From contig NZ_FSQW01000002.1 of the NCBI RefSeq assembly GCF_900128895.1, forward strand, positions 310,001 to 374,000: a DNA stretch of 64,000 bases. Reading direction: 5' to 3'. The translations under genes were made by a program, and so were the position numbers. Shown in pieces: positions 12,016-61,633 of the stretch. Numbering within the stretch: position 1 is the first letter of the stretch; every line of letters begins with the position of its first letter. Source of the stretch: Parasphingorhabdus marina DSM 22363 (GTDB lineage Bacteria > Pseudomonadota > Alphaproteobacteria > Sphingomonadales > Sphingomonadaceae). The notes under the pieces were generated by a model, which saw only the letters and a program-made list of their open reading frames with translations, was not told the origin of the DNA and searched no databases.

Positions 12016-12044
12016 GAGTCAGTGTATATCCCTGATTTGTCGGG

Positions 12045-12079: not shown

Positions 12080-12085
12080 CGGATA

Positions 12086-13129: not shown

Positions 13130-13236
13130 TTGGCTGTCCCCGTAAATCTAATGTTAGAGCGTGTTTTTCGTACAAGAATCACTAACCAATTCCCGTTCGG
13201 AATGACCGCTTATTAGGCAGATGCAATGTCCGGTAG

Positions 13237-13265
13237 ATGACAGATATATTACAAATTTGTGACAG
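13237..13265 (-). promoter_or_regulatory. Pho box, three direct repeats, upstream of pstS
   Basis: Read on the minus strand: CTGTCAC (13265-13259), four nt AAAT, TTGTAAT (13254-13248), four nt ATAT, CTGTCAT (13243-13237). These are three 7-mers at exact 11-nt spacing, the PhoB half-site consensus CTGTCAT with A/T-rich spacers. The site overlaps the phoR stop codon (13249-13251) and lies 108 nt before pstS. I see no strong -10 box at the expected distance. Confidence 0.85.
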
Positions 13266-14538: not shown

Positions 14539-14618
14539 CCGGATGAGGAACTTGGTACGGAATCGATTTTACTCCCGATCGCGCCAACATCGCAATGCAT
14601 TTGTGGGATTTCCGGCGC

Positions 14619-14634
14619 TGACGTCATGACGTCA
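14619..14634. promoter_or_regulatory. Tandem TGACGTCA palindromes
   Basis: TGACGTCA occurs twice back to back, making a 16-bp palindrome, in the 212-nt gap between phoR (minus) and the Tat-exported protein gene (plus). A second dyad, ATTTGTC (14651-14657) with GACAAAT (14670-14676), lies just downstream. Such symmetry in a divergent promoter region points to a dimeric repressor or activator site; the regulator is unknown. Confidence 0.5.
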
Positions 14635-14750
14635 TTAACAAGTTACCGGCATTTGTCCCGATTGTGGACGACAAATCAGGCAGCCAACTGTTTTCTCGCC
14701 ATTAACGGAATTTGCCTATATATGGCCGTTCAACAGGAACGGACAGCAGC

Positions 14751-15179
14751 ATGGCGAACGATAGCAAACCCAATCCGCAAAGCGGTCAAGACCGTCAGAA
14801 AGGCGAAAATGCTGGCATCGTGACCCGTCGTCGGGCTCTGATGATGGGGGCTGTGACCGCTTCTGCTGTGGTCAGTATCAAACCCGCGCTTGCCCAGACC
14901 GCAGGATCCGTGCTGAACTGTGAAATCCCCATCCCGGGCAATCATGCGGCCGGGGGATATATAGCGCCTGATGGAAAGGTGGTGCCACCGGACACTCCAG
15001 GCGCTTTTCCGCCTGCCTATGACAGTTTCTCGGGAGAGGAAATCCGGCGCGCGATGAGCGGTCGTTCGTTGCCCGGTGTTTCCCGGGAGCAGTCCAAGGC
15101 TTATGTGAACTATGTACGCCGCCTGCAATCCGGTCAAAGCGGATTCACTTGCTACGCATCTCTGCAGATGCCGCGCTAG
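14751..15179 (+). CDS. Tat-exported small protein with two conserved-looking cysteines, HPr-rel-A neighbourhood
   Basis: A 142-residue protein of unknown function. Residues 1-26 are polar, then a twin-arginine signal (TRRRALMMGAVTASAVV) with cleavage near ALA-QT, leaving about 94 mature residues. The mature part has one Cys near its start (SVLNCEIPIPG) and one near its end (GFTCYASLQM), a possible disulfide, and is rich in Pro and Gly (APDGKVVPPDTPGAFPP). ATG 14751 has AGGA 12 nt upstream; the frame also opens at a TTG at 14712. It precedes the PqqD-like gene by 105 nt and may be a partner or substrate of that cassette, which is an inference from position. Confidence 0.65.
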   Translation: MANDSKPNPQSGQDRQKGENAGIVTRRRALMMGAVTASAVVSIKPALAQTAGSVLNCEIPIPGNHAAGGYIAPDGKVVPPDTPGAFPPAYDSFSGEEIRRAMSGRSLPGVSREQSKAYVNYVRRLQSGQSGFTCYASLQMPR

Positions 15180-15237
15180 GCGGGTTTTAAGCCGGTTTTT
15201 CCGGGCAACCAATTTTAACGTTTTTCTGCTATCCAAC

Positions 15238-15261
15238 CATGCAAATTGAATGACTTGCATG
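15238..15261. promoter_or_regulatory. Inverted repeat CATGCAA-N10-TTGCATG before the PqqD-like gene
   Basis: Seven-base arms at 15238-15244 and 15255-15261 are perfectly complementary with a 10-nt spacer, ending 23 nt before the PqqD-like start. The size and spacing suit a dimeric helix-turn-helix operator. It suggests that the cassette has its own control point apart from the upstream Tat gene. Confidence 0.5.
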
Positions 15262-15284
15262 ATGCGGAACTTTGTAAAAGCACG

Positions 15285-15572
15285 ATGAGCCAGCAGTATA
15301 AACTCAGGACCGGGGAAACCCTGATCGAGCATGTGCTCGACAGCATGACCGCTGTCTTTCAGGCGTCATCTGGAATAACGCATCTGGTCACCGATCCGGT
15401 TCCGGCGATATTGGAAGTCCTGAGCGATCAATTTGTGGACAGCGATCAGGTCGCTGAACGTCTGCAACGCCAGTTTGATCTCCAGGCCGATGCCGACGTG
15501 GCGGCGGTTGTCGCAGCGCGGCTCGAGGAGCTGTGGCAGCTGGGCCTGGTGGAACGGCGTACGGCGCCGTGA
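15285..15572 (+). CDS. PqqD-like protein, HPr-rel-A system
   Basis: A 95-residue protein of the PqqD fold (peptide-recognition winged helix): TLIEHVLDSMTAVFQASSGITHLVTDPVPAILEVLSDQ followed by VAERLQRQFDL and VVAARLEELWQLGLVERR. PqqD proteins hold precursor peptides for modifying enzymes in PQQ and other RiPP pathways. I chose ATG 15285; an upstream TTG at 15246 falls inside the inverted repeat. Its stop overlaps the kinase start (GTGA, 15569-15572). Assignment to the HPr-rel-A branch rests on the following kinase and nucleotidyltransferase genes. Confidence 0.78.
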   Translation: MSQQYKLRTGETLIEHVLDSMTAVFQASSGITHLVTDPVPAILEVLSDQFVDSDQVAERLQRQFDLQADADVAAVVAARLEELWQLGLVERRTAP

Positions 15573-16441
15573 ATCCGCTACAGGAAACCCATCTGGCAAT
15601 CGGTCCTGCCCGGTTCCGGATCGCTTTGGCCTGGAAGCAGCCGCTTGAACTGTTGAAACGGCTATATGCCGACTATCCCGATCCTGATGACGGGTTTGCC
15701 GATTTTACCGTCCGTCTGGAACCGGACAAGCCATGGCGGCGCTTCATTCGGCCTTCTGTCCATATTTCCGGAGATTTCTGGTTGCCGGACGCCGCGCCAT
15801 TGCCGCTTGAGCAGGGCCTTCTGGCGGCAGAAATGGGAATGAACCTGCAAATGGCACTGGGCTGGCGGCGCCACCTTTTGCTGCATGCCAGTACGGTGGA
15901 GAAGGATGGCCGGGCGTTGATCATGACCGGCTTGTCCGGGTCCGGAAAATCCACGCTTTCGGCAATGCTGGGAGAACGGGGCTGGCGCTTCATGGGTGAT
16001 GAATTTGCTTTGCTGTGCCCAGATACCGGGCAGATATATGCCTTTCCGCGTCTGGTCAGTTTGAAGAACTCGGCCATCGCGGCGATGCAAAAGGAGCTTC
16101 CGGATGACAGATTCGGACCGCTTCTGAAGGCGACGCCAAAGGGCGACATTCGTCACCTCAAACCTGCCGCCGAAGCCATTGCCAATATGCATGAACCAGC
16201 CAGGCCTGCACTTCTGCTGTTCCCGCGCTTTGGTTACGAACCCGCTATTCGCAAAATGGGTCAATCAGAAATTTTTGTCCGGCTGACCCAGGCATCGACC
16301 AATTATGTTGCTTTGGGAGAGGCCGGTTTTCGCGCGCTCACCGAATTTGTCGATCAGGTGCCGGCGCGTGCCATCGACTACCAGTCGGGTGCGGAAGCAG
16401 AGGAAATTATCAACCGGCTTTGGGACGAGCTGGCATCATGA
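15569..16441 (+). CDS. HprK-related kinase A
   Basis: A 290-residue P-loop protein related to HPr kinase/phosphorylase. Walker A GLSGSGKST at about residues 121-129 follows HASTVEKDGRALIM, and a GDEFALL motif sits where HprK has its catalytic aspartates. No PTS phosphocarrier HPr gene is near, so the target is unknown; the family occurs with PqqD-like and nucleotidyltransferase genes in Proteobacteria and has no established product. The start is GTG 15569, overlapping the PqqD-like stop; the frame is open from 15533. The stop overlaps the next gene by 4 nt (ATGA). Confidence 0.82.
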   Translation: MNPLQETHLAIGPARFRIALAWKQPLELLKRLYADYPDPDDGFADFTVRLEPDKPWRRFIRPSVHISGDFWLPDAAPLPLEQGLLAAEMGMNLQMALGWRRHLLLHASTVEKDGRALIMTGLSGSGKSTLSAMLGERGWRFMGDEFALLCPDTGQIYAFPRLVSLKNSAIAAMQKELPDDRFGPLLKATPKGDIRHLKPAAEAIANMHEPARPALLLFPRFGYEPAIRKMGQSEIFVRLTQASTNYVALGEAGFRALTEFVDQVPARAIDYQSGAEAEEIINRLWDELAS

Positions 16442-17466
16442 GCAATGCCTGGCCTCTTGTCCGCGCGCTGCGGGATCCGGCTTCGGTCCGGGGGCTTGAT
16501 GGGGCAGGCTGGACCAATCTTGTCAGCATGGCCCGCGCGGAATCCCTGATCGGCAGTCTGGCGCACCGGTTAAAGGAGGAGGATGTGCCCGCTCGGGTAC
16601 GCCCGGTGCTGGATGATGCCATCGCTGCGCACCAACTGGCCCGGCAACAGGCTCTATGGGAAGCCGATTGCACGCGCCGGGCGCTGGCCGGTTACTCCGG
16701 GAAAGTGGTCTTGATGAAAGGGACTGCTTATGTCGCTGTCGATCTCGACGCGGGTATCGGCCGCAGCATCGGTGATCTCGACATCATGGTGGCGCGGGAG
16801 GATCTGAAGCAGGTTGAGCATATGCTGCTCGACGCGGGCTGGGAATGGGTCAAGCCGGATCCCTATGACGATCAATATTACCGCGAGCACATGCATGAAT
16901 TGCCGCCGCTGATCCACCGGGATCGCGACCGGATGATCGATGTGCATCATACGACGTTGCCGCTGACGGCCAGGCCAACACCCGATGCACGAGCGATGCT
17001 GGATGCCGCGGTTCAGCTTGAAACAGGCCAATATGTTATGGCCCCGGCAGATATGGTTCTGCACGCCGTGGCCCATCTTGTTGCCGACGGAGACCTCGCC
17101 GGGGGTCTCCGAAACCTGTGGGATATTGACCAGCTGATCAGGGAATTTGCCAAAGGCGACGAGGCATTCTGGGTCAGCGTCGAAGAACGGGCAAAAGCGC
17201 ATGGTCTTGCCCCACATTTGGCCCGCGCCTTGCGGCTTGCTGCCCGGCTTTACGGTACACCTGTTTCGCAGTCTGTTGCCGGAGTCGGGCAATTCTCTGA
17301 CTGGATCCATGAACGCCGCCTGCTCGCGCGCGACGGCTGGGGACGGGAAACGCGCAAACTGACCCGCCTGATATTCTATATTCGCTCTCACTGGCTGCGG
17401 ATGCCGCCGCTGATGCTCGCACGGCATCTGTTTGTGAAGTGGCGCAAGGGGCAGGGGGCTGCATGA
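16438..17466 (+). CDS. Nucleotidyltransferase family protein, HPr-rel-A cassette
   Basis: A 342-residue protein of the uncharacterised nucleotidyltransferase family (PF14907 type). The motif KGTAYV and the metal-binding RSIGDLDIMV (Asp-x-Asp, about residues 105-114) resemble the Pol-beta superfamily active site, and a later HELPPLIHRDRDRMIDVHH block and a helical C-terminal half complete the family pattern. Members often sit in RiPP, exosortase or capsule clusters and may adenylylate or otherwise activate a peptide or sugar; the reaction is unknown. ATGA overlap with the kinase gives tight coupling. Confidence 0.78.
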   Translation: MSNAWPLVRALRDPASVRGLDGAGWTNLVSMARAESLIGSLAHRLKEEDVPARVRPVLDDAIAAHQLARQQALWEADCTRRALAGYSGKVVLMKGTAYVAVDLDAGIGRSIGDLDIMVAREDLKQVEHMLLDAGWEWVKPDPYDDQYYREHMHELPPLIHRDRDRMIDVHHTTLPLTARPTPDARAMLDAAVQLETGQYVMAPADMVLHAVAHLVADGDLAGGLRNLWDIDQLIREFAKGDEAFWVSVEERAKAHGLAPHLARALRLAARLYGTPVSQSVAGVGQFSDWIHERRLLARDGWGRETRKLTRLIFYIRSHWLRMPPLMLARHLFVKWRKGQGAA

Positions 17467-17549
17467 CATCACAACTGCAATCAGACTGGCATAAGCCGCT
17501 GTCCCGTGGCATGGGGCGGCAAGTCATGTTTACGGGAAAATATCAATGA
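17463..17549 (+). CDS. Possible 28-residue peptide nested between the nucleotidyltransferase and glmU
   Basis: ATG 17463 overlaps the nucleotidyltransferase stop (ATGA) and the TGA at 17547 overlaps the glmU start (ATGA), so this 28-codon frame exactly fills the gap between the two genes with 4-nt overlaps at both ends. The peptide begins MTSQLQSDWHK and ends MFTGKYQ; it is basic, soluble and without cysteine. It may be a real small product of the cassette, a coupling leader carrying ribosomes into glmU, or chance. No family match is known to me. Confidence 0.35.
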   Translation: MTSQLQSDWHKPLSRGMGRQVMFTGKYQ

Positions 17550-19221: not shown

Positions 19222-19253
19222 CATGATATCATGATATGATATCACCATATCAT
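19218..19253 (+). promoter_or_regulatory. Promoter and overlapping palindromic operator of the vapBC-like pair
   Basis: A consensus -35 TTGACA (19218-19223) overlaps the phosphatase stop. Overlapping palindromes follow: ATGATATCAT (19223-19232), TGATATGATATCA (19232-19244), and ATGATAT-CACC-ATATCAT (19236-19253), the last running into the antitoxin ATG at 19252. A -10-like TATCAC (19240-19245) is 16 nt from the -35 box and would start RNA at about 19252. There is no Shine-Dalgarno sequence, so the message may be leaderless. The repeats are a natural site for ribbon-helix-helix autorepression. Confidence 0.7.
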
Positions 19254-19581
19254 GACTCGCATTCTTGCAGATCTCTCGGAAGATGATGTCCAGTGGCTCG
19301 ACGCGCAGGCGGTGGGGCAGGGGACGTCGCGGGCGCAATTGTTGCGCGATGCCGTGGCGGCGTTCCGGGCGGATGCGTCCAAACAGGGGATCGAGAAATA
19401 TTTCGGGATTTGGCGCGACCGGCGCAGCCCGCAGGATCCGGTCGAGTGGCAAAGGCGGGAGCGGGCTTCCTGGACCCGGCCCTGGGATCCCGATTACTGG
19501 GATGTCCGCAAGGAATTTCCCGATCTGTTTGATGCTGATGATGACCGCGAAGCCGAGCGTTATCGCCGGAAGCAGGCCTGA
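19252..19581 (+). CDS. Ribbon-helix-helix antitoxin, VapB-like
   Basis: The N-terminal 45 residues (MTRILADLSEDDVQWLDAQA then TSRAQLLRDAVAAF) form a CopG/RHH DNA-binding domain; the rest, to 109 residues, is charged and Trp/Asp-rich (DPVEWQRRERASWTRPWDPD), suited to wrap the toxin. It is longer than common VapB proteins (70-80 residues). It probably neutralises the PIN toxin 5 nt downstream and represses the shared promoter through the palindromes that reach its start codon. Confidence 0.75.
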   Translation: MTRILADLSEDDVQWLDAQAVGQGTSRAQLLRDAVAAFRADASKQGIEKYFGIWRDRRSPQDPVEWQRRERASWTRPWDPDYWDVRKEFPDLFDADDDREAERYRRKQA

Positions 19582-19586
19582 CGCAC

Positions 19587-50664: not shown

Positions 50665-51693
50665 CTAATGCGAAGTGCGCCGTCGGACAAGGCCCGAGAG
50701 ATATTGCTTCAAAATGGGAAACCAGGCCATTGGATTGTTGGGCCAGTACATTTCGAGCCGATATCTGGTCCGCACGGTATCCATCCAGTCCCGCTTGTAA
50801 GGATCATTGCCGGTTCCGAAGTCTACCAGATCCACATGATCGACATCGATAACATGCTGAAACATCGCGGCGGTCAGCAATGTTCCGGGTGAGGATTTTG
50901 TCGCATCTTCGAGATGGGCGAGCTTGTGGATCAGCGCTTCGCCATTTTCAACGGTCCACAATTGTGCCGCCACTGGCTGCCCTTCAATATAGGCCAGCCC
51001 CAGACGCAGACAGCCAGCATCGGACTCCTGTTTGGCCAGGGTTTTCAGGAATTCCGGGCTGCCTTCCTCGGGTTTCCAGCTATTGGCATATACGTGGAGA
51101 TAGTCTTTCCAGTGCTCTTCGGTGAACTGGTTTTCGATACGTGTTGACACCAGATTCTTTTTGGCCTTGCGACGGACGGTATTGCGCAGCTGTCCGGGTC
51201 GTTCGGCCCAATAGCTGTCAAATGTCCGCCCCTTGACCGCCAGGACGTGATTGTCGTCCGCCTTGGATCGGAACGCGATCCAGCCGGCCTGTTCGAATGC
51301 TCTCTGGGTCAGGCTGGTGGACTGGTCCTCTTCCGGCATGGGAGAAAGCGTGATTTTGTGGGCAGAACCCCGGGCTTCTTTGGCAATGGCCGCCAGCAGA
51401 GCCAGTTTGGTGACTTCATCAAAATCGCCGGTGAAAACGGGGCGAAAGGTGAAATTGTACCAGTTGGCAAGGCCCTCGTATTTGCCGATGCCTGTTTTCA
51501 TGAGATACATCCACGCTTCCGCTTCACCCTCGGAACTGCGAAAGATGACGGGCTGATGGTCGGAAACGCAGTATTTGTGCAGGTTGCGCACCCAGTTCAG
51601 ACGATCAAACAGGGATTTCTGTACCGCCCGGTCCAGCTTTTTGCCAGCAACTGCTTGCGCCGACTGAAAATTGTCGTGATATTCACTGTTCAT
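50665..51693 (-). CDS. GNAT-superfamily acyltransferase, BioF2/FemAB-like
   Basis: A 342-residue two-domain acyltransferase-like protein. The C-terminal half has RLGLAYIEGQPVAAQLWTVENG and HKLAHLEDATKSSPGTLLTAAM, then FGTGNDPYKRDWM, a pattern shared with BioF2/FemAB-like proteins in XrtA clusters. It could use the ACP-bound acyl chain for polysaccharide or peptide acylation (inference). ATG 51693 is chosen; GTG 51714 is possible. Its start faces the AMP-ligase 53 nt away. Confidence 0.7.
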   Translation of the reverse strand: MNSEYHDNFQSAQAVAGKKLDRAVQKSLFDRLNWVRNLHKYCVSDHQPVIFRSSEGEAEAWMYLMKTGIGKYEGLANWYNFTFRPVFTGDFDEVTKLALLAAIAKEARGSAHKITLSPMPEEDQSTSLTQRAFEQAGWIAFRSKADDNHVLAVKGRTFDSYWAERPGQLRNTVRRKAKKNLVSTRIENQFTEEHWKDYLHVYANSWKPEEGSPEFLKTLAKQESDAGCLRLGLAYIEGQPVAAQLWTVENGEALIHKLAHLEDATKSSPGTLLTAAMFQHVIDVDHVDLVDFGTGNDPYKRDWMDTVRTRYRLEMYWPNNPMAWFPILKQYLSGLVRRRTSH

Positions 51694-51746
51694 TGTTATC
51701 GTCGTGCTTGTCACAAATTTGCTCTTTTCCCCATAGGCTCAGACAG

Positions 51747-53285
51747 TTGAAACCTCAATCTGATAACCCCGCCTTTGCTCTCGATCGGCTTGCCGTCGCA
51801 GGCGATCCGGAATCGGCGGCACTGACGACGCGTGCGGGCAGCCTTAGCTACAAGATGTTAAATCATCGTGTGGGCCAGATCGCCAAGTGGCTGGAGCAGC
51901 AGGATCTGGATAAGGGGGATCGGGTAGCGAGCTGGTTGCCAAAGACAGAACTGGCCTGTCTGTTGCCGCTTGCGGTAACCCGGGCAGAAATGATCCATGT
52001 CCCGGTCAATGCCTTGCTGAAACCTGGACAGGTTGGACACATAATCGGGGACAGCGGAGCCCGGTTGATCATTACCAACACACCACGCGTCAAATCGTTG
52101 GGAGAGCTGCCGAACGCAACAGATTGTACTGTTATCAGTGACAAGGATCTGGAGCTGGCAGCGAAGGAAATTTCAGATCCGCTTCCTCCCAATGGTACCG
52201 ATTTTGATACCGACAGGCTTGCGGCCCTGCTTTACACCAGCGGATCAACCGGCCGTCCGAAAGGGGTCATGCTGAGCCACGCCAATCTCAGCATCGGGGC
52301 GGTGAGCGTCGCCGAATATCTGAAGCTCGAGGCCGATGATCGCACGCTTTGCGTGCTTCCGCTCAGCTTTGACTACGGCCAGAACCAGCTGCTTTCCACC
52401 TGGATGGCGGGTGGATGTGCTGTTCCGCTGGATTATCTCACTCCGCGGGATGTCATCAAGGCCTGCATCCGGGAGGAAATCACGACACTGGCTGCTGTTC
52501 CGCCGCTCTGGGTGCAACTGGTTGAGCAGGAATGGCCGGAAGAAGCCATCGATTCGATGCGTCGCCTGACCAATAGCGGTGGCGCCTTGACGCCAGTGTT
52601 GGTCCGGCAGTTGCGTGAAATATTTGGTTCCAAAACAGATATTTATGCAATGTACGGACTGACAGAAGCGTTTCGGTCCACCTATCTTGATCCGCAATTG
52701 ATTGATGCCAATCCGGCGAGCATGGGCCGAGCCATTCCGCATGCCGAGATCATGGTGATCGATGAACAAGGCGAGATTGCCGGACCTGACAAGGAGGGAG
52801 AGCTTGTCCATGCGGGGCCGCTTGTCGGGCAGGGATACTGGCAGGATCCGGAACGCACTGCGGAGCGATACAAGTCGGCTCCAGCCGGATCTCGCTACGG
52901 CGGAATGGCCGTGTGGTCCGGCGATACCGTCAAGCGCGGCAGCGATGGCCTGCTGTATTTCGTTGGCCGAACCGACAGCATGATCAAAAGCAGTGGCAAT
53001 CGCATCAGCCCGTCGGAAATTGAGGAAGCGGCGCTGGCTTCCGGCCTGGTTGCCGAAGCCGTGGCGCTGGGCGTTCCCGACGATCGCCTGGGGCATGCCA
53101 TCATGCTGTTTGTCCGGGGACGCAATGAGGATGGTGCCGGTGATACCCATGATCTTGAAACCTGGTTGAAACGGAATTTACCGAATTTTATGCAACCGCG
53201 CGATATTGTCTGGCTGAAAGAATTTCCCAAGAATCCGAACGGGAAACTGGACCGTAATGCCTTGAAAGAAGGGTCGTTTGCATGA
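51747..53285 (+). CDS. Acyl-CoA ligase (AMP-forming), exosortase A system-associated
   Basis: A 512-residue ANL-superfamily enzyme with the AMP-binding motif LLYTSGSTGRPKGVMLSH, YGLTEAFRSTYL and the hinge GRTDSMIKSSGNRISPSEIE, ending with the catalytic lysine in NPNGKLDRNAL. It probably loads an acyl group on the ACP encoded divergently. No ATG precedes the conserved start; TTG 51747 is the best candidate. The stop overlaps the decarboxylase start by 4 nt. Confidence 0.85.
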   Translation: MKPQSDNPAFALDRLAVAGDPESAALTTRAGSLSYKMLNHRVGQIAKWLEQQDLDKGDRVASWLPKTELACLLPLAVTRAEMIHVPVNALLKPGQVGHIIGDSGARLIITNTPRVKSLGELPNATDCTVISDKDLELAAKEISDPLPPNGTDFDTDRLAALLYTSGSTGRPKGVMLSHANLSIGAVSVAEYLKLEADDRTLCVLPLSFDYGQNQLLSTWMAGGCAVPLDYLTPRDVIKACIREEITTLAAVPPLWVQLVEQEWPEEAIDSMRRLTNSGGALTPVLVRQLREIFGSKTDIYAMYGLTEAFRSTYLDPQLIDANPASMGRAIPHAEIMVIDEQGEIAGPDKEGELVHAGPLVGQGYWQDPERTAERYKSAPAGSRYGGMAVWSGDTVKRGSDGLLYFVGRTDSMIKSSGNRISPSEIEEAALASGLVAEAVALGVPDDRLGHAIMLFVRGRNEDGAGDTHDLETWLKRNLPNFMQPRDIVWLKEFPKNPNGKLDRNALKEGSFA

Positions 53286-54511
53286 CGAAAATCAAGCCAG
53301 TCGGCCCGATTCCTGACGGATATACCTCCCTTGATGGCGAATTGTCAGTTGGTGGCATAAAGGCTTCGCAAATCGTTGATCAACATGGCTCGCCGGTATT
53401 CGTCTATTCCCGGTCCTTGCTGGATCAGCGCATGGCGGAGCTGAAACAAGCGATGCCCGAGCAGCTTGATATCCATTATGCGATGAAGGCCAATCCGTTC
53501 GCGCCGCTGCTAAAGCACATGGTTTCGGCTGCAGACGGGATAGATATCGCATCTGGTGGGGAGTTGGTGATGGCGCTGGCAGCCGGTGCCCGACATATCA
53601 GTTTCGCTGGTCCGGGAAAACGCGATGAAGAATTGCGTGCCGCCATCGAAGCGGGTGTCACCATCAACCTGGAATCGCCGACGGAATGCGATCGGGCGTT
53701 GCGCATTGGATCGGAATGCGGGGTGGCTCCGGTGCTGGCCATTCGCGTCAATCCCGACTTTGACCTGAAAGGGTCCGGCATGAAAATGGGCGGCGGCGCC
53801 AAACAGTTCGGAATGGACATCGAACTGGTCGCCGGTGAGATGGAAAAGATCTTAAAAGCAGGAGCCAAGTGGCGAGGTTTCCACATATTTGCCGGATCTC
53901 AGGCCTTGAAAGCGGATGCAATAATCGAGACCCAGATACAGACCCTGGAGCTGGCGGGCCGGCTTGCTGAAGAAGCCGGTGCGGCGCCGGAACATGTCAA
54001 TCTGGGCGGAGGATTCGGGATCCCCTATTTCCCGGGCGACGAGCCTCTGGATATCACCAAAATAGGGGCGGCATTGGGCGAACGGCTCTCGAATCTTCCT
54101 GATATTCTGAAAAACACCCGATTTGCGATAGAGCTGGGTCGATATCTGGTAGGGGAGGCAGGTGTTTATCTGACCCGGGTCATCGACCGCAAGGTCAGCC
54201 GCGGCGAGACGTTTCTGGTCACCGATGGCGGATTGCATCACCAATTGGCCGCGAGCGGCAATTTCGGGACCGTGGTAAAACGCAATTATCCGGCAGCGAT
54301 AGCCAGTAAGTTTGACGATAAACCTGAGGAAACGGTGTCAATTGTTGGATGCCTGTGCACGCCACTGGATCGATTGAGCGACAATGCCGAGATGCCCAGA
54401 GCGGAAGTCGGAGATATTGTCGCAATATTCTGTGCCGGAGCCTATGGCGCTACGGCCAGCCCGGCCAATTTCCTGGGGCAGGGACCTGCGGCAGAGATTT
54501 TGGTCGGATGA
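53282..54511 (+). CDS. PLP-dependent decarboxylase, exosortase A system-associated
   Basis: A 409-residue fold-III decarboxylase related to diaminopimelate decarboxylase (LysA). PLP lysine is in DIHYAMKANPFAPLL near residue 68; HVNLGGGFGIPYFPGD and the ELGRYLVGEAGVYLTRV segment follow, and CLCTPLDRLSD has the C-terminal active-site cysteine. Its product in XrtA systems is unknown. A true lysA would not normally sit here, so I favour the XrtA-type paralogue. Confidence 0.85.
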   Translation: MTKIKPVGPIPDGYTSLDGELSVGGIKASQIVDQHGSPVFVYSRSLLDQRMAELKQAMPEQLDIHYAMKANPFAPLLKHMVSAADGIDIASGGELVMALAAGARHISFAGPGKRDEELRAAIEAGVTINLESPTECDRALRIGSECGVAPVLAIRVNPDFDLKGSGMKMGGGAKQFGMDIELVAGEMEKILKAGAKWRGFHIFAGSQALKADAIIETQIQTLELAGRLAEEAGAAPEHVNLGGGFGIPYFPGDEPLDITKIGAALGERLSNLPDILKNTRFAIELGRYLVGEAGVYLTRVIDRKVSRGETFLVTDGGLHHQLAASGNFGTVVKRNYPAAIASKFDDKPEETVSIVGCLCTPLDRLSDNAEMPRAEVGDIVAIFCAGAYGATASPANFLGQGPAAEILVG

Positions 54512-54650
54512 TCGCTGGTCAGAGGCCGACCTCGCCGAAAAGGTAAAGATAATCTCAACCGGCTAATCCTAACGCTATCTTCACTATTTTCCAGCATAGC
54601 TTTCGCGAGACTTTGTGTGGTGTGGCCATTCCCAATGGAAAAAGGCGGCG

Positions 54651-54680
54651 CCTCGCAGACTGAACGCGAGGTATTGAAGA
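54651..54680 (+). promoter_or_regulatory. Leader hairpin that can hide the ribosome-binding site of the EPS export gene
   Basis: CCTCGC (54651-54656) pairs with GCGAGG (54666-54671). The second arm contains the GAGG Shine-Dalgarno sequence of the gene starting at ATG 54680, so folding would block initiation. The 168-nt gap upstream presumably also holds the promoter of the polysaccharide arm. Confidence 0.5.
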
Positions 54681-55336
54681 TGAGTATAGCACTGAAAAAA
54701 GAGCTTTTTCTGAAGTATCTGTTGGGAACTGCTCTGGTGTCGCTGACCGTCAGCGGTTGCGCCGGCAATTCTTCCGGTGCCCAGTTGCCCCCGGCATCCT
54801 TCGTGTCGATGCAGGAAGGACCCGGCGAGGAATATGTCATCGGGCCACTAGACGAACTGACAATCTTTGTCTGGCGCAATCCCGAACTGGGCGCGAAGGT
54901 GCAGGTGCGTCCGGATGGCCGGATCACCACGCCGCTGATTACGGACATGCCCGCCGTCGGCAAGACGCCAGCCATGCTCGCCGAAGATCTGAAGCTGCAG
55001 CTGTCTCAATATATCAACGAGCCGATTGTGTCGGTCATCGTCAATAATTTCTCGGGGACATTCTCGCAGCAGATCCGCGTCGTCGGGGCGACGGAGAAGC
55101 CGGCATCGATCCCCTATCGCGCGAACATGACCCTGCTGGACGCGATGATTGCGGTTGGCGGTCTTTCCGAATTTGCCTCGGGTAATCGTGCCCGCCTGGT
55201 GCGCTTCAATCGCGGTACCGGTCAGCAGCAGGAATATGCATTGCGGATCGGGGATCTGCTGAAGCGCGGAGAAACCAAGGCAAATGTCATGCTGCGTCCC
55301 GGTGACGTCATCATCATTCCGGAAAGCATGTTCTGA
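54680..55336 (+). CDS. XrtA system polysaccharide export protein (Wza-like lipoprotein)
   Basis: A 218-residue outer-membrane export lipoprotein: lipobox VSGCAG near residue 27, then the poly-export domain (YVIGPLDELTIFVWRNPEL, VRPDGRITTPLI) and a SLBB domain (GATEKPASIPYRANMTLLDA). It forms the periplasmic/outer-membrane part of the channel. ATG 54680 is set by GAGG 8 nt upstream; the frame opens at 54617. Confidence 0.92.
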   Translation: MSIALKKELFLKYLLGTALVSLTVSGCAGNSSGAQLPPASFVSMQEGPGEEYVIGPLDELTIFVWRNPELGAKVQVRPDGRITTPLITDMPAVGKTPAMLAEDLKLQLSQYINEPIVSVIVNNFSGTFSQQIRVVGATEKPASIPYRANMTLLDAMIAVGGLSEFASGNRARLVRFNRGTGQQQEYALRIGDLLKRGETKANVMLRPGDVIIIPESMF

Positions 55337-55373
55337 TTATCCGCATCTCCAATTCAAAGGATCATCCTGATCA

Positions 55374-56903
55374 ATGAACGGTCTTTATGACGAAATCAGA
55401 ATAGCAGTGCACAGCGTCTGGAACCGGCGCTGGATGGCGCTGGCCGTGGCCTGGGGCATTTGCCTGCTGGGCTGGCTGGTCGTTGCGCTTATTCCGAACA
55501 GTTACGAATCGACGGCGCGGGTGTTTGTCGAGATGCAATCGATCCTGACCGAAAAGGTCGGTATCGAAACCCGTGAGCGCAAAAAGAACATGGAACGTGT
55601 ACAGGAAACCCTGGCGTCGACGATCAATCTGGAAAAGGTCGTCCGCGGTACGGACCTCAACCTGACAGTTGCCAGCGACCGGGAACTGGCCGGCAAGGTC
55701 GAAATGCTGCGCAAGAATATCGAGATCAAGTCCGAAAAGGACAATCTGTTTGAGATCACCGCGAAATCCTCCGCCAGCAATCTGTCGGATGCGGAAAACG
55801 CTAAACTCTCCCGCGAGATCGTCCAGAAAATGATCGACATCTTCGTCGAGGAAAATCTGTCTGGTGATCGCGATGAAACCAGCCAGACGCTGAAATTTCT
55901 TGATGCGCAGCTGGCCGAACGGGAAAAGGATCTGCAGGAAGCCGAGCAGAAACGCGTGGCGTTTGAAACCGAGAATCTCGGATTGCTGCCCGGCGTGGGG
56001 TCTATCAGCCAGCGTATGGAAGCCGCCCGGGCCGAACTGGGTCAGATTGATTCTCAGCTCGCCCAGGCATCGGCCTCACTTGCGGCCTTGAATGGCCAGC
56101 TGGCCGGTACGCCACCGACAATAGCAACTCCGGGTTTCGGCGGTGCAGGCGGTGGCAGTGCGCTGTCTCAGGCGCAGGGCAGGCTGGCTTCTGCCCGGGC
56201 GCGAGGCTGGACCGACAGTCATCCCGATATCATTGCTCTGAAAAAGGAAATTGCTGCGCTGCAAGCCCAGGGTGCCGGACGTTCCGGAGGCGGTGGTTTC
56301 CGCACACCCAACCCGGCCTATAGCTCGCTGCAGAGCATGCGCGCCGAACGACAGGCATCGGTGGCGGCGCTTCAGGCCCGCAAAAATGCATTGCAGGCCG
56401 ACATGGCACAACTGGCTTCCAAACAAACGCTAGAACCCGGTGTTGCGGCCGAAATGGCACGCATCAATCGCGATTATGACGTGCTCAAGGACCAGTATGA
56501 CAAATTGCTCGCCGACCGGGAGCAAATCAAGCTGCGCGGTCAGGTGGAAACGGAGACTGACTCTGTGAAATTCCGGGTCATCGACCCGCCATCCAGCCCG
56601 AGATCGCCAGCAGCGCCCAATCGGCCGCTGCTGCTTGCGCTGGTGCTGTTTGTCGGCATTGGCGGCGGCATTGGATCGGCTTTTGCCATGGGACAATTGC
56701 AAACCAGCTATCCTACCGCGGCCAAGCTGGAAAAAGCCAGCGGATTGCCCGTGATCGGGTCTGTTTCGCAAATTCTGACCAGCTCGCAGCGGATCCTGCG
56801 CAAAAAGAAAATGCGGCTTTTCTATGGAACGGGTGGCGCGCTTTTCGGTGTGTTCGCGCTGCTGATGGTCGTCGAATTTGTACAGCGCGGAATGGTGGCC
56901 TGA
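55374..56903 (+). CDS. XrtA system polysaccharide chain-length determinant (Wzc-like, no kinase domain)
   Basis: A 509-residue inner-membrane co-polymerase with membrane helices at about 20-40 and 418-440 and near 480-500, a Wzz domain after the first, and long coiled coils at about 175-235 and 315-385 (many Glu, Gln, Ala). The PPSSPRSPAAPNRPLLLAL proline motif before the second helix is the Wzz hallmark. The kinase is a separate protein encoded 9 nt downstream. Confidence 0.92.
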   Translation: MNGLYDEIRIAVHSVWNRRWMALAVAWGICLLGWLVVALIPNSYESTARVFVEMQSILTEKVGIETRERKKNMERVQETLASTINLEKVVRGTDLNLTVASDRELAGKVEMLRKNIEIKSEKDNLFEITAKSSASNLSDAENAKLSREIVQKMIDIFVEENLSGDRDETSQTLKFLDAQLAEREKDLQEAEQKRVAFETENLGLLPGVGSISQRMEAARAELGQIDSQLAQASASLAALNGQLAGTPPTIATPGFGGAGGGSALSQAQGRLASARARGWTDSHPDIIALKKEIAALQAQGAGRSGGGGFRTPNPAYSSLQSMRAERQASVAALQARKNALQADMAQLASKQTLEPGVAAEMARINRDYDVLKDQYDKLLADREQIKLRGQVETETDSVKFRVIDPPSSPRSPAAPNRPLLLALVLFVGIGGGIGSAFAMGQLQTSYPTAAKLEKASGLPVIGSVSQILTSSQRILRKKKMRLFYGTGGALFGVFALLMVVEFVQRGMVA

Positions 56904-56912
56904 GGACAAGAT

Positions 56913-57821
56913 ATGAACAAGTACAAGCCTCTCAGCAAATCCGGAAGCCTTTTGGAACGGGCCGCTCAGGTCTATGACTATATGCCATCCAGTGCCGCTC
57001 CGCCCGCGAGCCCTGCACCGGAGATTTTGCCACCCGAAACAGCTGCGCCAGAACAGGCTGTGCCGGTTGTCCGTAAGCCGCATGACGGGCCCACCGTGAT
57101 CGTCGACCGCGACAAGTTGCGCCAGGCAGGTTTTATCGTGCCAGACGGACCGGTTACCGGCATTTCCGAAGAATTCCGGATCATCAAGCGCCAGTTGCTG
57201 TTGGCTGCCAAAGGCAGTTCGCGTCATGGAGCGCTTCCGCATGGAGAGCGGATTTTGATCTGTTCCGCGCATCCGGACGAGGGCAAAACATTCTGTGCGC
57301 TGAATCTGGCCCTGTCGATTGCGGCAGAAAAAGACAATGAAGTCCTGCTGGTAGACGCCGACTTTGCCAAACCCAGTATCCTGTCCAGCCTGGGACTGGA
57401 AGGCAGCAAGGGTCTGATGGATGCGCTGGCCGATCCCGAATTGGCGGTAGAAAACTGCATCATCCACACAGATATTCCGGGACTCGCCATATTGCCGGCG
57501 GGAGACCAGACCAACGAAGATACCGAGTATCTGGCCTCTTCACGCACGGCCCAGGTTCTGGATCGCCTGACCCGCCACAACCCGCACCGGATTGTGATTT
57601 TCGATTCGCCGCCCGCTCTTTCGGCATCGCCGGCTTCGGTGCTGGCTACCCATGTCGGGCAAGTGCTGATGATTGTGAAGGCAGACGAGACAATCGAAAC
57701 CGCGCTGCGTGACGCGCTAAGCCTGCTGGCCGGCTGCGATCACATCCAGCTGCTGCTCAATGGCACCAAATTTTCACCGACCGGAAGACGGTTCGGATCT
57801 TATTATGGATATGGAGAGTAA
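56913..57821 (+). CDS. XrtA-associated tyrosine autokinase (CpsD/Wzc-C like)
   Basis: A 302-residue BY-kinase. Walker A is the variant SAHPDEGKTFCALNLA, Walker A-prime LLVDADFAKPS and Walker B IVIFDSPPAL. The C-terminus is a short tyrosine cluster (GSYYGYGE), the likely autophosphorylation site. The first 70 residues are Pro/Ala-rich and may reach the chain-length protein. It controls polymer length by cycling phosphorylation. Confidence 0.9.
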   Translation: MNKYKPLSKSGSLLERAAQVYDYMPSSAAPPASPAPEILPPETAAPEQAVPVVRKPHDGPTVIVDRDKLRQAGFIVPDGPVTGISEEFRIIKRQLLLAAKGSSRHGALPHGERILICSAHPDEGKTFCALNLALSIAAEKDNEVLLVDADFAKPSILSSLGLEGSKGLMDALADPELAVENCIIHTDIPGLAILPAGDQTNEDTEYLASSRTAQVLDRLTRHNPHRIVIFDSPPALSASPASVLATHVGQVLMIVKADETIETALRDALSLLAGCDHIQLLLNGTKFSPTGRRFGSYYGYGE

Positions 57822-57823
57822 CC

Positions 57824-59446
57824 ATGGCCAAGCGTAACCATATGAATATATGGCAGTTTGGAGCGCTCGTTCCCCCAATGCTGCTGGTGGCTCTGGCCCC
57901 GGCTCAGGCACGCGACAGGAATGTGGATGTCGCACCCTATCTGGAAGTTCAGCAGGTTCTGGTTGCCGATCTCAACAATGGTACAGATGTGCTGACCTAT
58001 ACGTCGGTCGCCGCCGGTATCGATACGTCATTGCAGACCCGTCAGGCCGAAGCTCAGGTCAGTCTGCGTTACGAGCGACGCTTCTTTTACCAGGACAATA
58101 TTGGCGATGACGATATCCTGAGCGGACTGGCCCGCGGCAGTGTCCAGGTCGTGCCCAACGCTCTGTCTCTCGAAGCTGGCGGGATCGCGACGCGCAGCCG
58201 GGTCGATATCCGGGGCGAAGCGCCTTCCAATACAGTGGGGGATTTTGACAACCTGACACAGGCCTATTCGGTTTATGCCGGTCCCTCGCTTGCGACAAAT
58301 GTCGGTGCGCTGGATGTGACGGCCAATTACCGTGTCGGATATACCAAGGTCGAGGCAGACGATGCGATTGTTCTCGCGCCCGGACAGCCGGCGATCGACG
58401 TTTTTGACGACAGTGTCACCCATTCGGCCAATGCGAGCATTGGCATGCGCCCCGGACCGCTTCCGGTAGGCTGGACCGTCAGCGGCGGATATGAACGCGA
58501 AGACGCGGATCAGCTCGATCAGCGGTTCGAAGAAAAATATGTGCGGGCGGATGTGACTGTACCGGTTTCTCCAACGCTCGCACTGGTGGGCGGTGTCGGA
58601 TATGAAGATATCGAGATTTCCGAACGCGATGCGTTGCGTGACGTCAACGGTGACCCGGTCATTGGCAATGACGGACGCGTGGTCACCGATCCGGCTTCAC
58701 CGCGCCTGCTCGCCTATGATCAGGACGGCATTATCTGGGATGCCGGTGTTCTTTGGCGCCCCAGTCGCCGGACATCGCTGGAAGCCCGGGTGGGACGCCG
58801 TTATGGCAGCACCACCTATTATGGTAGCCTGGGATATCAGCCCAACGAAAATACGTCGCTTGGCATAGCGGTGTATGACACCGTTTCCGGCTTTGGCGGA
58901 TTGCTCAACGACAATCTTTCCAATCTCGGAACCAGCTTCATCAGCAATCGCAACCCGTTGAGCGGAGAATTTAACGGCTGTGCGTTTGGACAGACCAGCA
59001 GTTTCTGCTTCAACGATGCCCTGCAATCGGCAGCATCCTCGTCTTTCCGCGCACGCGGTGTGAACGGGCAGCTGACATACGCGCGTGCGGGCTGGAGCAC
59101 CGGAATTGGCGTCGGATATACGCGACGCCGTTTCTTCGCGGCGCAGACAGGCGGACTGGCCAATATCGATGGTCTGGTTGATGAGAATTACTATGCCAAT
59201 TTCTTCATCGGCAAGGATATCAACGCGCGTTCGAGCTTCGATGCCAATGTTTATGCGAATTTGCTCGACAGCGGCTTTCCCGGAGCGGGTGAAGTCCTCG
59301 GCCTCGGCACCAACGCAGCCTATTATTATCAGTTCCTGCCAGGACTGCAGGGCACGGCAGCCGTCGGTCTCGACAGTTTCCATCAGGATGGCTTCGAGAG
59401 CGAGCTGACCGCATCGGCGTTGCTGGGACTGCGTTATGACTTCTGA
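57824..59446 (+). CDS. XrtA/PEP-CTERM system outer-membrane beta-barrel protein
   Basis: A 540-residue outer-membrane protein: signal peptide (1-29, ending APAQA), then many alternating amphipathic strands with YxR/F patterns and a C-terminal phenylalanine (LLGLRYDF), the beta-barrel sorting signal. It matches the TIGR03016-type barrel that accompanies the XrtA polysaccharide genes, a possible secretion pore. Starts 2 nt after the kinase. Confidence 0.88.
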   Translation: MAKRNHMNIWQFGALVPPMLLVALAPAQARDRNVDVAPYLEVQQVLVADLNNGTDVLTYTSVAAGIDTSLQTRQAEAQVSLRYERRFFYQDNIGDDDILSGLARGSVQVVPNALSLEAGGIATRSRVDIRGEAPSNTVGDFDNLTQAYSVYAGPSLATNVGALDVTANYRVGYTKVEADDAIVLAPGQPAIDVFDDSVTHSANASIGMRPGPLPVGWTVSGGYEREDADQLDQRFEEKYVRADVTVPVSPTLALVGGVGYEDIEISERDALRDVNGDPVIGNDGRVVTDPASPRLLAYDQDGIIWDAGVLWRPSRRTSLEARVGRRYGSTTYYGSLGYQPNENTSLGIAVYDTVSGFGGLLNDNLSNLGTSFISNRNPLSGEFNGCAFGQTSSFCFNDALQSAASSSFRARGVNGQLTYARAGWSTGIGVGYTRRRFFAAQTGGLANIDGLVDENYYANFFIGKDINARSSFDANVYANLLDSGFPGAGEVLGLGTNAAYYYQFLPGLQGTAAVGLDSFHQDGFESELTASALLGLRYDF

Positions 59447-59481
59447 CAACAAATATTTTCGGACTGGTGGGAGAGCCACGG

Positions 59482-60756
59482 ATGTATGAGAGTTTCTATG
59501 GACTGAGAAGTCGGCCCTTTCAGCTGACGCCGGATCCGCATTATTATTTTGAAAGCGTGACCCATCGCAAGGCGTTGTCCTATCTCGGATATGGCTTGGC
59601 ACAAGGAGAGGGCTTTATTGTCATCACTGGTGATGTCGGTGCCGGCAAGACGACCCTGGTCGGCCACCTGATGGCGACGATCGACGAATCGCGCCTGACA
59701 GCAGCGAACATCGTCACCACAAAGCTCGACAGCCGGGATATCGTCCGGATTGCCGCAACGAATTTCCATATCGAAACTGACGGGATGGACAAGGCTCAGC
59801 TTTTGAGCGCGTTTGAAGAATTTCTTCACAGTGAGGCGAGAGCCGGACGGCGCTGTCTGCTGATCGTGGACGAGTCCCAGAATCTCCAGACAGATGCACT
59901 GGAAGAGCTGCGCATGCTGTCAAATTTTCAGCTTGGCGGACAGGCGCTGCTGCAGATTTTCCTGCTCGGCCAGCCCGAGTTCCGGGACAATCTGCAACAG
60001 TCGGATCGTCTTGAACAGCTCCGTCAGCGCGTGATCGCGCACCATCATCTGGAACCGATGGAAAAGGAAGAAATCGAGCCTTACATCACCCATCGTTTGT
60101 CAAAAAGCGGGTGGACCGGACGGCCGAAGATAACCTCTGATGTATTTCGCCTGCTGTACAGTGAAACGGGCGGTGTGCCACGCAAGATCAATACGCTGAT
60201 GAGCCGGGTCCTGCTGATGGGTTCGGTCGAACAGGCCGAATTGATCGACCAGACTCTGGTCGGCCGCGTTCTGGCTGATCTGAACGGCGAAGAAGTGGAA
60301 ATCGCCGGCGGTGTTCCGGAAGAGGAAATCGCCGCAGAGCCGCCAAAGAGCCCATTGATGGAAAAACCGGCAAAAGCTGTCGAACCGGAGCTGCCGCCAT
60401 TGGCCTCGGCACCTCAGGAAACGAGCCAGCCCGAAGCAAAAATTGAGGAGCATGAAGTTGTTTCGCTCCGGTCGGTTGCCACCGAACCTGCGGAAACGGT
60501 TCCGCAGGCTCAGGAAAAAGTTGAGCCATCTGAACCGTCTGTTGCGCAGGTCGAGGCGTCTGCAGAAACCGCCGAAACTGCTCCATCTGCAGACACGGCC
60601 GAAGTCCAGGCTCTGGCTGAGCGGATCGCGCAACTTGAATCTCGGATCGACAGTCAGGAAGAAAATCTGCAGCGTATCTTGACGATGCTTGTGGATTGGG
60701 TCGAAAGCGATGTCCGGAGCAAGGAAAGCCATGTCAATACAGGACGCGCAGCCTGA
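59482..60756 (+). CDS. XrtA system AAA ATPase (ExeA-like) with long acidic C-terminal tail
   Basis: A 424-residue protein. The first 265 residues are the ExeA-like ATPase: FYGLRSRPFQLTPDPHYYF, Walker A GDVGAGKTT (50-58), Walker B CLLIVDESQNL. From about 270 comes an extension rich in Glu, Pro, Ala (PPKSPLMEKPAKAVEPELPP) and a coiled coil (VQALAERIAQLESRIDSQEENLQRI). The family I recall averages nearer 345, so the tail is long. GGGAG 8 nt before ATG 59482 sets the start. Confidence 0.88.
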   Translation: MYESFYGLRSRPFQLTPDPHYYFESVTHRKALSYLGYGLAQGEGFIVITGDVGAGKTTLVGHLMATIDESRLTAANIVTTKLDSRDIVRIAATNFHIETDGMDKAQLLSAFEEFLHSEARAGRRCLLIVDESQNLQTDALEELRMLSNFQLGGQALLQIFLLGQPEFRDNLQQSDRLEQLRQRVIAHHHLEPMEKEEIEPYITHRLSKSGWTGRPKITSDVFRLLYSETGGVPRKINTLMSRVLLMGSVEQAELIDQTLVGRVLADLNGEEVEIAGGVPEEEIAAEPPKSPLMEKPAKAVEPELPPLASAPQETSQPEAKIEEHEVVSLRSVATEPAETVPQAQEKVEPSEPSVAQVEASAETAETAPSADTAEVQALAERIAQLESRIDSQEENLQRILTMLVDWVESDVRSKESHVNTGRAA

Positions 60757-61633
60757 CTCTTTGGCGACTGCCGGCACAACTCCGGCTTTGCTGAATGCAA
60801 TGTCGGTCGATATCGAGGACTGGTTCCAGGTTGGTGCCTTTGAATCGGTGATCGATCGCGCCGATTGGGATGGTCTCGACCACCGGGTCGAGCGCAACAC
60901 CGATGCCGTGCTGGAACTCTTCGCCGAAACCGAAATTCCGGCAACTTTTTTCATCCTCGGTTGGGTTGCTGAGCGCTATCCCGCGCTGATGCAGCGCATT
61001 GTCGCGGCGGGCCACGAGGTTGCCAGTCACGGCTATGACCACAAGCGTGTGTTCAACCTGACGCCGCAGCAATTTCGCGATGACCTGGAAAAATCCCGCA
61101 AGCTTCTGGAGGACAGTTCCGGGCAAAAAGTAAGCGGTTACCGTGCCCCCAGCTTTTCCATCGACCAGCGCACGCCATGGGCACATGAGATATTGGCGGA
61201 ACAGGGCTATAGGTACAGCTCCAGTGTCGCGCCTGTTCACCATGACCACTATGGCTGGACGGGATCGCCGCGATTTGCATGGAAGCCGGTTGCGGGTTCG
61301 GATCTCATAGAATTGCCGGTCACGACCGTAGCCGCAGGCGGGCGTGTGCTGGCTGCTGGCGGCGGGGGCTTTTTCCGTTTGCTGCCTTACGCATTGTATC
61401 AATGGGCGATTGGCAGAATGCACCGGGACGACGGGCGCGGAGCCATTTTCTATTTTCATCCGTGGGAAATTGATCCGGACCAGCCGCGCGTGGACAATGC
61501 ACCGCTGAAATCAAAACTGCGGCATTATTCCCGCCTGAATGTCATGCACGCCAAATTGCTGCGCGTGGCAAAGGACTATCGATGGGGCCGGGTAGATGAA
61601 CTGGCCAGTCTCGAGGCGGAGATGATGCGATGA
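60731..61633 (+). CDS. XrtA system polysaccharide deacetylase
   Basis: A 300-residue NodB-family enzyme: NAMSVDIEDWFQ carries the catalytic Asp27 or Asp30, SHGYDHKRVF the metal-binding His pair, and YRAPSFSIDQRTP the third conserved motif; YFHPWEID near the end is the fourth. It probably removes acetyl groups from the exported polysaccharide. AAGGA 6 nt before ATG 60731 sets the start, which overlaps the ATPase gene by 26 nt. Confidence 0.9.
   Translation: MSIQDAQPDSLATAGTTPALLNAMSVDIEDWFQVGAFESVIDRADWDGLDHRVERNTDAVLELFAETEIPATFFILGWVAERYPALMQRIVAAGHEVASHGYDHKRVFNLTPQQFRDDLEKSRKLLEDSSGQKVSGYRAPSFSIDQRTPWAHEILAEQGYRYSSSVAPVHHDHYGWTGSPRFAWKPVAGSDLIELPVTTVAAGGRVLAAGGGGFFRLLPYALYQWAIGRMHRDDGRGAIFYFHPWEIDPDQPRVDNAPLKSKLRHYSRLNVMHAKLLRVAKDYRWGRVDELASLEAEMMR

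Follow-up and report, generated by a model that had tools for sequence, protein, structure and literature searches.

We report that an exported protein with a twin-arginine (RR) signal, which formerly had no label and usually ends in Cys-x-x-Ser, travels with a known three-gene cassette, the HPr-rel-A system, consisting of a PqqD-type protein, an HprK-related kinase and a nucleotidyltransferase. The cassette under study occupies positions 14,539 to 17,549 of a 64,000-nucleotide stretch of the genome of Parasphingorhabdus marina DSM 22363 (contig NZ_FSQW01000002.1, positions 310,001 to 374,000), and this whole stretch is called the window below. There is strong evidence that the RR protein is the partner of the cassette, and it is likely to be its substrate; we therefore call it the cargo. 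Our preferred reading, with a probability of roughly 0.58, is that the cassette is a protein-tailoring unit similar to those acting on ribosomally synthesized and post-translationally modified peptides (RiPPs), with the cargo as its substrate and the serine of the C-terminal CxxS motif as its site. Taken separately, the assignment of that serine as the modification site is plausible. The HPr-rel-A enzymes are already named in public annotation, and a co-inherited cargo with a conserved serine makes their open target experimentally simple.

The cassette in the window is a genuine unit of a PqqD-type recognition protein, an HprK-related kinase and a nucleotidyltransferase. The PqqD-type protein scores 54.2 bits against TIGR04353 (cut-off 35) and the kinase 238.9 bits against TIGR04352 (cut-off 200), and the adjacent nucleotidyltransferase matches PF14907 with an E-value of 9.7e-49, which together identify an HPr-rel-A system. 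A preliminary description of this DNA, made from the sequence alone, had stated that the three genes are tightly coupled by overlaps of 4 nucleotides, and both the frames and the overlaps were confirmed: along the series of pqqD, kinase, nucleotidyltransferase, a 28-codon open reading frame (ORF) and glmU, they read GTGA, ATGA, ATGA and ATGA. The cargo has no NCBIfam match at E <= 1 and no Pfam match above cut-off. Within the open-licence literature, no paper was found for "HPr-rel-A", for "HprK-related kinase" or for the TIGR accessions, and none for exosortase together with PqqD.

The partnership of cargo and cassette was assessed in 98 whole genomes, comprising the own genome, 31 others of the same genus, 27 of the family and 39 of the order. 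Strong kinase matches are present in 61 of them (60 above the cut-off, and G063 at 187.8 bits). A profile made from 21 aligned cargos (alignment A1) finds matches in 62 of the 98 genomes at E <= 0.01. Two of these genomes, G034 and G053, have no kinase, and their weak matches, which lie in long frames, were counted as chance. In one kinase genome that the profile missed (G088), the upstream ORF has an RR signal and the end GGISCIHSWIDYIRW. The cargo is therefore found in 61/61 genomes with the kinase (60 by profile and G088 by ORF reading) and credible copies in 0/37 of the others, a co-occurrence far above chance, and it is for this reason that we count the cargo as the partner of the cassette. 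The preliminary description had proposed that the two-cysteine protein directly upstream, with its signal for twin-arginine translocation (Tat), belongs to the system; it is a conserved partner, and when relatives were checked for its absence beside the cassette it was retained, with the copy located elsewhere in some genomes. In G002 and G095, the cargo is on another contig, and the contig with the kinase ends there. As a separate observation, G083 has a second cargo-like match (G083:C2:616665-616883) on a contig other than that of the cassette, an orphan cargo.

A further set, of named loci, was obtained by a scan for the kinase motif, of which the best 80 of 589 loci were kept. Their titles are nearly all Sphingomonadales, with one Alphaproteobacteria and one Bacillus sp. 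Fifteen of the 80 repeat genomes of our other sets, as recognized by an identical 500-nucleotide stretch of the kinase, including L213, which is cut at the kinase. Among these best 80 of 589, the cargo motif is encoded in 79/79 evaluable loci, 14 of which repeat genomes of the first set. It was recognized in 58 loci by regular expression, in 20 by tblastn (in L236 in two frames) and in L256 by a fragment at the locus edge, 4 kb upstream, where only the last 12 residues of the cargo are visible. In 16 loci of Sphingobium type, the cargo lies 1.6-1.8 kb upstream of the kinase, with one gene in between. This gene is glycosyltransferase-like in the six loci in which it was read (L221, L223, L229, L239, L242 and L253), and the gene between cargo and pqqD is a family-4 glycosyltransferase in the two that were run through Pfam (L229 and L239). 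Eight Sphingobium-type genomes that were searched whole have one cargo match each.

Wider draws covered 289 genomes of the class and 299 of the phylum, with a kinase threshold of E <= 1e-30, and the kinase was found in 8 and 51 of them, respectively (the own genome is counted in both). From the 56 distinct non-own kinase genomes, 40 were used, of which 7 belong to the own family, 6 to other orders of the class and 27 to lineages beyond the class. An RR protein with [S/T/N]CxxS near its end is encoded in the fetched stretch around the kinase in 26 of the 40, with 20 found by regular expression and L135, L139, L146, L154, L159 and L165 by reading. Beyond the class, the motif is typically SCWTSF; in L131 it reads NCYLS, and in L154 the motif cargo is on the strand opposite to the kinase. 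A motif cargo resides elsewhere in the genome, not near the kinase, in another 5/40 (loci L287-L291). The unlinked cargo of G577 reads ...SGFTCFASITTSR and is on the same contig as the kinase, at a distance of approximately 164 kb; those of G630, G453 and G442 read ...LPGLSCLNSF..., ...DSCWTSFSSN and ...VSCWNSFMG, and that of G493 reads ...TSCWSSFTWT, with a profile E-value of only 0.006. In these five genomes, cargo and enzymes have separated, yet both are kept.

Two controls bear on how specific these findings are. As background, [S/T]CxxS occurs in the last 75 residues of 10 of 1307 other non-overlapping ORFs at the wider loci, a mixed set in which some frames may be spurious and a few may be cargos that escaped recognition. 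At E <= 0.01, the cargo profile matches 7/8 kinase genomes of the class draw and 17/281 of its other genomes. Thirteen of these 17 matches without a kinase were read, and they are mostly ordinary long Tat proteins, with the motif in the matched frame in 0/13. The cargo signal alone is therefore non-specific, and it is the whole architecture that is specific. One of the 13, in a genome without the kinase (G221, locus L298), is a short RR protein with a cargo-like signal and no CxxS, which is perhaps the cargo of another recognition-element system.

The cargo in the window is composed of a variable N-terminal tail, the signal RRRALMMGAVTASAVVSIKPALAQ, C57, a variable middle and the C-terminal sequence FTCYASLQMPR, which includes C134 and S137. 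Its only two cysteines are C57 and C134. Cargos across families have the same layout: the tail before the RR is variable, the signal is conserved, a cysteine comes shortly behind the AxA site, middles are of differing length, and the C-terminal end usually has [S/T]-C-x-x-S. Alignment A1 holds 21 of 56 cargo ORFs; long Asp-rich cargos and most same-genus copies were left out of it, and the motif is kept in those. Its invariant columns are M1, R27, L30, G33, A48, C134 and S137, so that in the mature part, at 20-77% identity to the window, C134 and S137 alone are invariant. R26 and A46 are conserved in at least 90% of the 21 rows, which, with the invariant R27 and A48 and a hydrophobic stretch, makes up the motif of a Tat substrate. 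Pfam's TAT_signal model has no match in the window protein, and Tat-dependent export is a prediction from this motif. Outside the class, RRRRLLKGLAAGVPAVITL is a frequent form of the signal. A signal core of P-x-hydrophobic-hydrophobic-T-L is widespread, with S in place of P in the window genus.

Within the genus, 28 of the 31 relatives were compared with the window, with L042 and L082 (frame defects) and L049 (contig end) dropped. Identity rises from 26% before the RR to 98.2% across the signal; the mature part stands at 81.4% and the final 20 residues at 99.5%. A structural model of the cargo has a predicted local distance difference test (pLDDT) score of 68.5 overall and block means of 81-91 over residues 71-140, and places C134 and S137 on a helix at 132-139. 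The fold has no match in the PDB at E <= 0.001, and a Pfam scan of ten cargos gave none above cut-off. Two tandem cargos are present in L050, and in L064 two cargos flank a single pqqD. The middles of the cargos in L031, L038, L050, L053, L057 and L060 are strongly Asp-rich or repetitive, as if they were metal-binding or disordered.

The catalytic motifs of both enzymes are intact. Among 21 kinase sequences (alignment A2), H106, K127 of the P-loop, D144 and E145 are invariant, as are K94, G95, R109, D113 and D115 among 18 nucleotidyltransferases (alignment A3). Against sequences in the PDB, the kinase matches HPr kinase over only 41-47 positions around the P-loop (E 0.0011-0.0014), ranked below a designed P-loop protein, and the nucleotidyltransferase has no meaningful match. 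We take PF14907 to be also the family of the nucleotidyltransferases in clusters for lasso peptides and for linear polyphosphorylated peptides (LPP). The PqqD-type protein (alignment A4, with 42 of the 92 pqqD ORFs from 101 loci) was modelled with a pLDDT of 89.4. The top 13 Foldseek matches of this model are PqqD, TbiB1, lasso B1, a sactipeptide enzyme, ThcOx and the RiPP recognition element (RRE) of PbtF, with probabilities of 0.99-1.00 and E-values of 0.003 to 0.07 (best 0.0032; none below 0.001). The matches at probability 1.00 are PqqD (5sxy), TbiB1 with its leader (5v1v/5v1u) and lasso B1 (6jx3). By sequence, its best solved relative is TfuB1 (E 0.0036). The model thus predicts the winged-helix fold of an RRE for the PqqD-type protein, which would be expected to bind the RR precursor.

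Precedents for such a trio have been described for two classes of peptides, lasso peptides and LPP, whose tailoring systems are the nearest described ones. The HprK-like kinases PadeK, ThcoK, SyanK and PsmK act on the C-terminal serine of a lasso precursor, and PsmN, annotated as a nucleotidyltransferase, is tied to the addition of a hexose to the phosphoserine (PMC9266682). LPP of Bacillota (Nat Commun 2026, PMC13381572) are associated with a discrete RRE, an HprK-like kinase and a nucleoside triphosphate (NTP) transferase, and have variable precursors of 35-200 amino acids; the clusters that led to them sat within loci for capsular polysaccharide. In both classes, one serine of the precursor is phosphorylated by the related kinase (PMC9266682, PMC13381572).

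By analogy, the simplest reading is that the same chemistry is applied to a Tat-exported protein at the CxxS serine. We infer the chemical steps, their order, the sites and the biological role as follows. The PqqD-type recognition protein would bind its substrate, most likely at the conserved signal region, and the kinase would place a phosphate on the serine within [S/T]CxxS at the C-terminus, as the lasso and LPP kinases do on theirs. The PF14907 enzyme would then extend the phosphoserine with a sugar or a nucleotidyl group, in line with the role proposed for PsmN. Modification presumably takes place in the NTP-containing cytoplasm. Export of the finished protein would follow through the Tat system, with signal peptidase I cutting at AxA, and once outside, the two cysteines may become linked by a disulfide. 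The product would probably serve the cell surface or the exopolysaccharide layer, near whose genes the cassette often clusters. The more general proposal of the preliminary description, that kinase, nucleotidyltransferase and peptide-binding protein modify a small protein, is supported. If correct, this reading would bring Tat-exported proteins, besides small secreted peptides, within the range of RRE-guided modification, and surface polysaccharide loci would gain a second associated group of RRE-kinase-nucleotidyltransferase trios.

The link to exopolysaccharide comes from the exosortase XrtA. The genes of the XrtA/PEP-CTERM type in the window match TIGR03098, 03099, 03027, 03007, 03018, 03015 and 03019, and the exosortase match (PF09721) of the own genome (G000:C1:374022-374771) starts 22 nucleotides to the right of the window end. 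Exosortase is found in 80 of the 98 genomes, namely in 57/61 with the kinase and 23/37 without it (Fisher p 2.4e-4, not corrected for kinship). Where kinase and exosortase share a contig in other families of the order, which is the case in 14 genomes, their starts are 4.1-14.5 kb apart. XrtA-type genes are present in the fetched stretch at 19 of the 40 wider loci, each of the 19 belonging to the 33 from outside the family, and at 8 of 60 loci of the order. Seven neighbours from three loci were run through NCBIfam, and six are XrtA-type (TIGR03087, TIGR03088, TIGR03108, TIGR03007, TIGR03027 and TIGR02917). Beyond the class, the cassette often sits among XrtA exopolysaccharide genes. The preliminary description had overlooked this link, part of which lies at 51.7-62.7 kb of the window, as well as the [S/T]CxxS motif and the lasso and LPP precedents.

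A number of observations weigh against our reading. The cargo frame is broken in G007, G008 and G038 and lies in two frames in L236, so that either the cargo is dispensable or the assemblies have errors. Eight of the 40 wider loci (L129, L142, L144, L155, L161, L162, L167 and L168) have an upstream protein with an RR signal that lacks CxxS, and no cargo was found in G104, whose kinase contig is only 4.5 kb long; the CxxS serine therefore cannot be a universal target. Three of the eight (L129, L161 and L168) have a GYWKN- or GFFKN-like stretch and no Pfam match, and perhaps represent a second cargo class of the same cassette. The leader motif of lasso and LPP precursors, [Y/W]xxPx[LVIFA], is absent from the window protein by reading, and its signal is even without a proline. 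The cargo signal alone also matches unrelated Tat proteins, and its conservation is only modestly above that of the Tat signal of the Rieske protein, which was used as a control in 27 relatives (signal 91.4%, mature part 85.6%, compared with 98.2% for the cargo signal). Conservation of the signal thus only modestly supports an extra constraint on it, and we rejected it as proof of RRE binding, given this control and the profile matches to ordinary Tat proteins. The kinase carries D-E where lasso kinases are described with His-Lys-Asp-Asp (PMC9266682), if the columns correspond, and for PsmN the same review allows for addition of the sugar by a host enzyme. In the window genus, kinase and exosortase are 48-328 kb apart (median 92 kb, 20 genomes); the distance is 0.69 and 0.87 Mb in two further genera of its family, and G085 and G097 carry them on separate contigs at positions that are not close to each other. 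Finally, the conserved serine could be structural.

This last point leads to the alternative that survives best, which we consider unlikely but worth serious attention: the cargo is the partner of the cassette, and the kinase acts on another residue, with CxxS serving to position the C-terminal helix, as a structural or disulfide motif. The eight cargos without CxxS accompany the same kinase, C134 and S137 share one helix of the model, and the window cargo has further Ser and Thr residues. This alternative fits poorly with the invariance of S137 in a mature part with hardly any other invariant residue, and with the described kinase relatives, which act on one fixed serine.

The exosortase linkage, the glycosyltransferase inserted in Sphingobium-type loci and glmU and glmS downstream would also agree with a kinase and nucleotidyltransferase that activate a sugar for the XrtA exopolysaccharide, with the PqqD-type and RR proteins as accessory or regulatory factors. 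We regard this as distinctly improbable. A discrete recognition-element fold serves to bind peptides, HprK-type kinases have proteins as their targets, and cargo and kinase are together also in 4/61 genomes in which no exosortase was found; in lasso and LPP clusters, moreover, the same trio acts on peptides.

Even less probable is that the PqqD-type protein is only a chaperone of the Tat signal, with the enzymes belonging to another pathway in a shared operon. The high conservation of the signal and the two cargos flanking one pqqD in L064 would suit such a role, and the 4-nucleotide overlaps through all three genes, the pqqD-like ORF at the kinase in 92/101 loci and the presence of the cargo in kinase genomes even if unlinked argue against it. 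Least credible, in spite of the two cysteines and the invariant serine of the cargo, is a phosphoserine intermediate that is eliminated to dehydroalanine and attacked by cysteine to form a lanthipeptide-like thioether ring, since NCBIfam and Pfam show no lyase or cyclase family among the window cassette proteins and the nucleotidyltransferase would be left unexplained.

Our preferred reading, tailoring of the cargo at the CxxS serine, also allows a bolder version that we offer as a speculation with the odds well against it. In such a Tat-coupled protein phosphoglycosylation, the recognition protein would read the Tat signal, proofread the cargo and release only serine-modified cargo to Tat, and a phosphodiester-linked group on the CxxS serine would join the cargo to the XrtA-dependent exopolysaccharide or outer surface. 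If this were true, then together with LPP in Bacillota, RRE-kinase-nucleotidyltransferase trios would be a general way of decorating proteins of surface polysaccharides.

Coordinates of the cassette and of associated features are listed in Table 1. The preliminary description had assigned the cassette its own control region. The 212-nucleotide gap upstream of the cargo gene contains the element TGTCCCG-n-tta-T-n-GACG at 14654-14670, which is kept in 31 same-genus rows (window included) and is a candidate promoter or operator. The palindromic repeat TGACGTCATGACGTCA at 14619-14634, also considered as an operator, is not conserved in relatives and was rejected.

Table 1. Features of the cassette region and its context in the window
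Feature	Position	Strand	Remarks
Upstream intergenic region with TGTCCCG-n-tta-T-n-GACG element	14539..14750	+	Candidate promoter/operator
RR-signal (Tat-type) protein	14751..15179	+	ATG start, 142 aa; proposed cargo/substrate
PqqD-type protein, discrete RiPP recognition element (TIGR04353)	15285..15572	+	
HprK-related kinase A (TIGR04352)	15569..16441	+	GTG start, 4-nt overlap with pqqD
PF14907 nucleotidyltransferase (NTP_transf_5)	16438..17466	+	4-nt overlap with kinase
28-codon ORF between cassette and glmU	17463..17549	+	Rejected as coding part
glmU	start 17546		4-nt overlap with 28-codon ORF
XrtA/PEP-CTERM exopolysaccharide genes	51693..62703	+	Context, outside cassette

The 28-codon ORF, which had been counted as a part of the cassette, did not hold up as a functional part or precursor. 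A bridging frame is present in only 7 of the 19 same-genus loci with a short gap between nucleotidyltransferase and glmU (window included), and the 28-residue peptide has no NCBIfam match at E <= 1 and no Pfam match above cut-off. The peptides of the window and of L043 have W-H...G-M-G in common; this region corresponds to conserved DNA ahead of glmU, which is shared by 12 long-gap loci; in these, the frame jumps via 1-nucleotide indels between near-identical sequences (L034 and L035). Weak tblastn matches just before glmU in several relatives (E 0.12-0.85) are explained by this conserved DNA, in which the frame is not kept. At 17486-17518 of the window, CTGGCATAAGC...TGGCATGGGGCG is conserved before glmU in the genus regardless of what lies upstream, and is possibly a control element of glmU.

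The neighbours of the cassette in the window are PstA, PstC, PstS-like and PhoR-like genes upstream and glmU and glmS downstream (the PstS and PhoR matches are below cut-offs). The phosphate transport and PhoR-like genes, at 9372-14538, run divergently on the upstream side of the cargo gene, where phoR-like matches are seen repeatedly across the order. Two small genes in the interval between glmU and glmS (19252-19955) have weak matches to VapB and VapC (E 4e-4, below cut-offs) and are a possible toxin-antitoxin pair. Another of the neighbours searched, which cover 9.4-21.8 kb, encodes a phosphatase-like protein with a weak match.

Comparison with known systems places the cassette as follows. 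It shares its genomic neighbourhood with the XrtA/PEP-CTERM system in many carriers. However, 23 of the 80 exosortase genomes (of 98) have no kinase, and the cargo has no PEP-CTERM tail: by reading, the window protein ends in SGFTCYASLQMPR, with neither the PEP motif nor the transmembrane helix (there is no C-terminal hydrophobic stretch) and Arg-rich C-terminus of PEP-CTERM proteins. With LPP, the window cassette has in common the RRE, the HprK-like kinase and the NTP transferase, and differs in a cargo with a Tat-type signal, a conserved site at the C-terminus, two cysteines and an XrtA context. An SpI-like peptidase and an MsbA-like transporter of the LPP type are absent from the searched neighbours. 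Lasso peptides of the paeninodin and pseudomycoidin types likewise have an HprK-like kinase acting on the precursor, and PsmN as an annotated nucleotidyltransferase, whereas the window cargo is exported and has a mature length of about 93 residues; neither the lasso B2 leader peptidase nor the macrolactam cyclase is found among the cassette and searched neighbours. Because the cargo is without a WxxP/YxxP leader and has no such peptidase or transporter among its neighbours, it is not a member of LPP; nor is it a lasso peptide, and at most it works like them. The cassette itself corresponds to the HPr-rel-A system, with both window proteins above the curated cut-offs and the order pqqD-kinase-nucleotidyltransferase. 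Those family names cover the enzymes only, and to them we add the exported cargo, its CxxS motif and the exosortase link.

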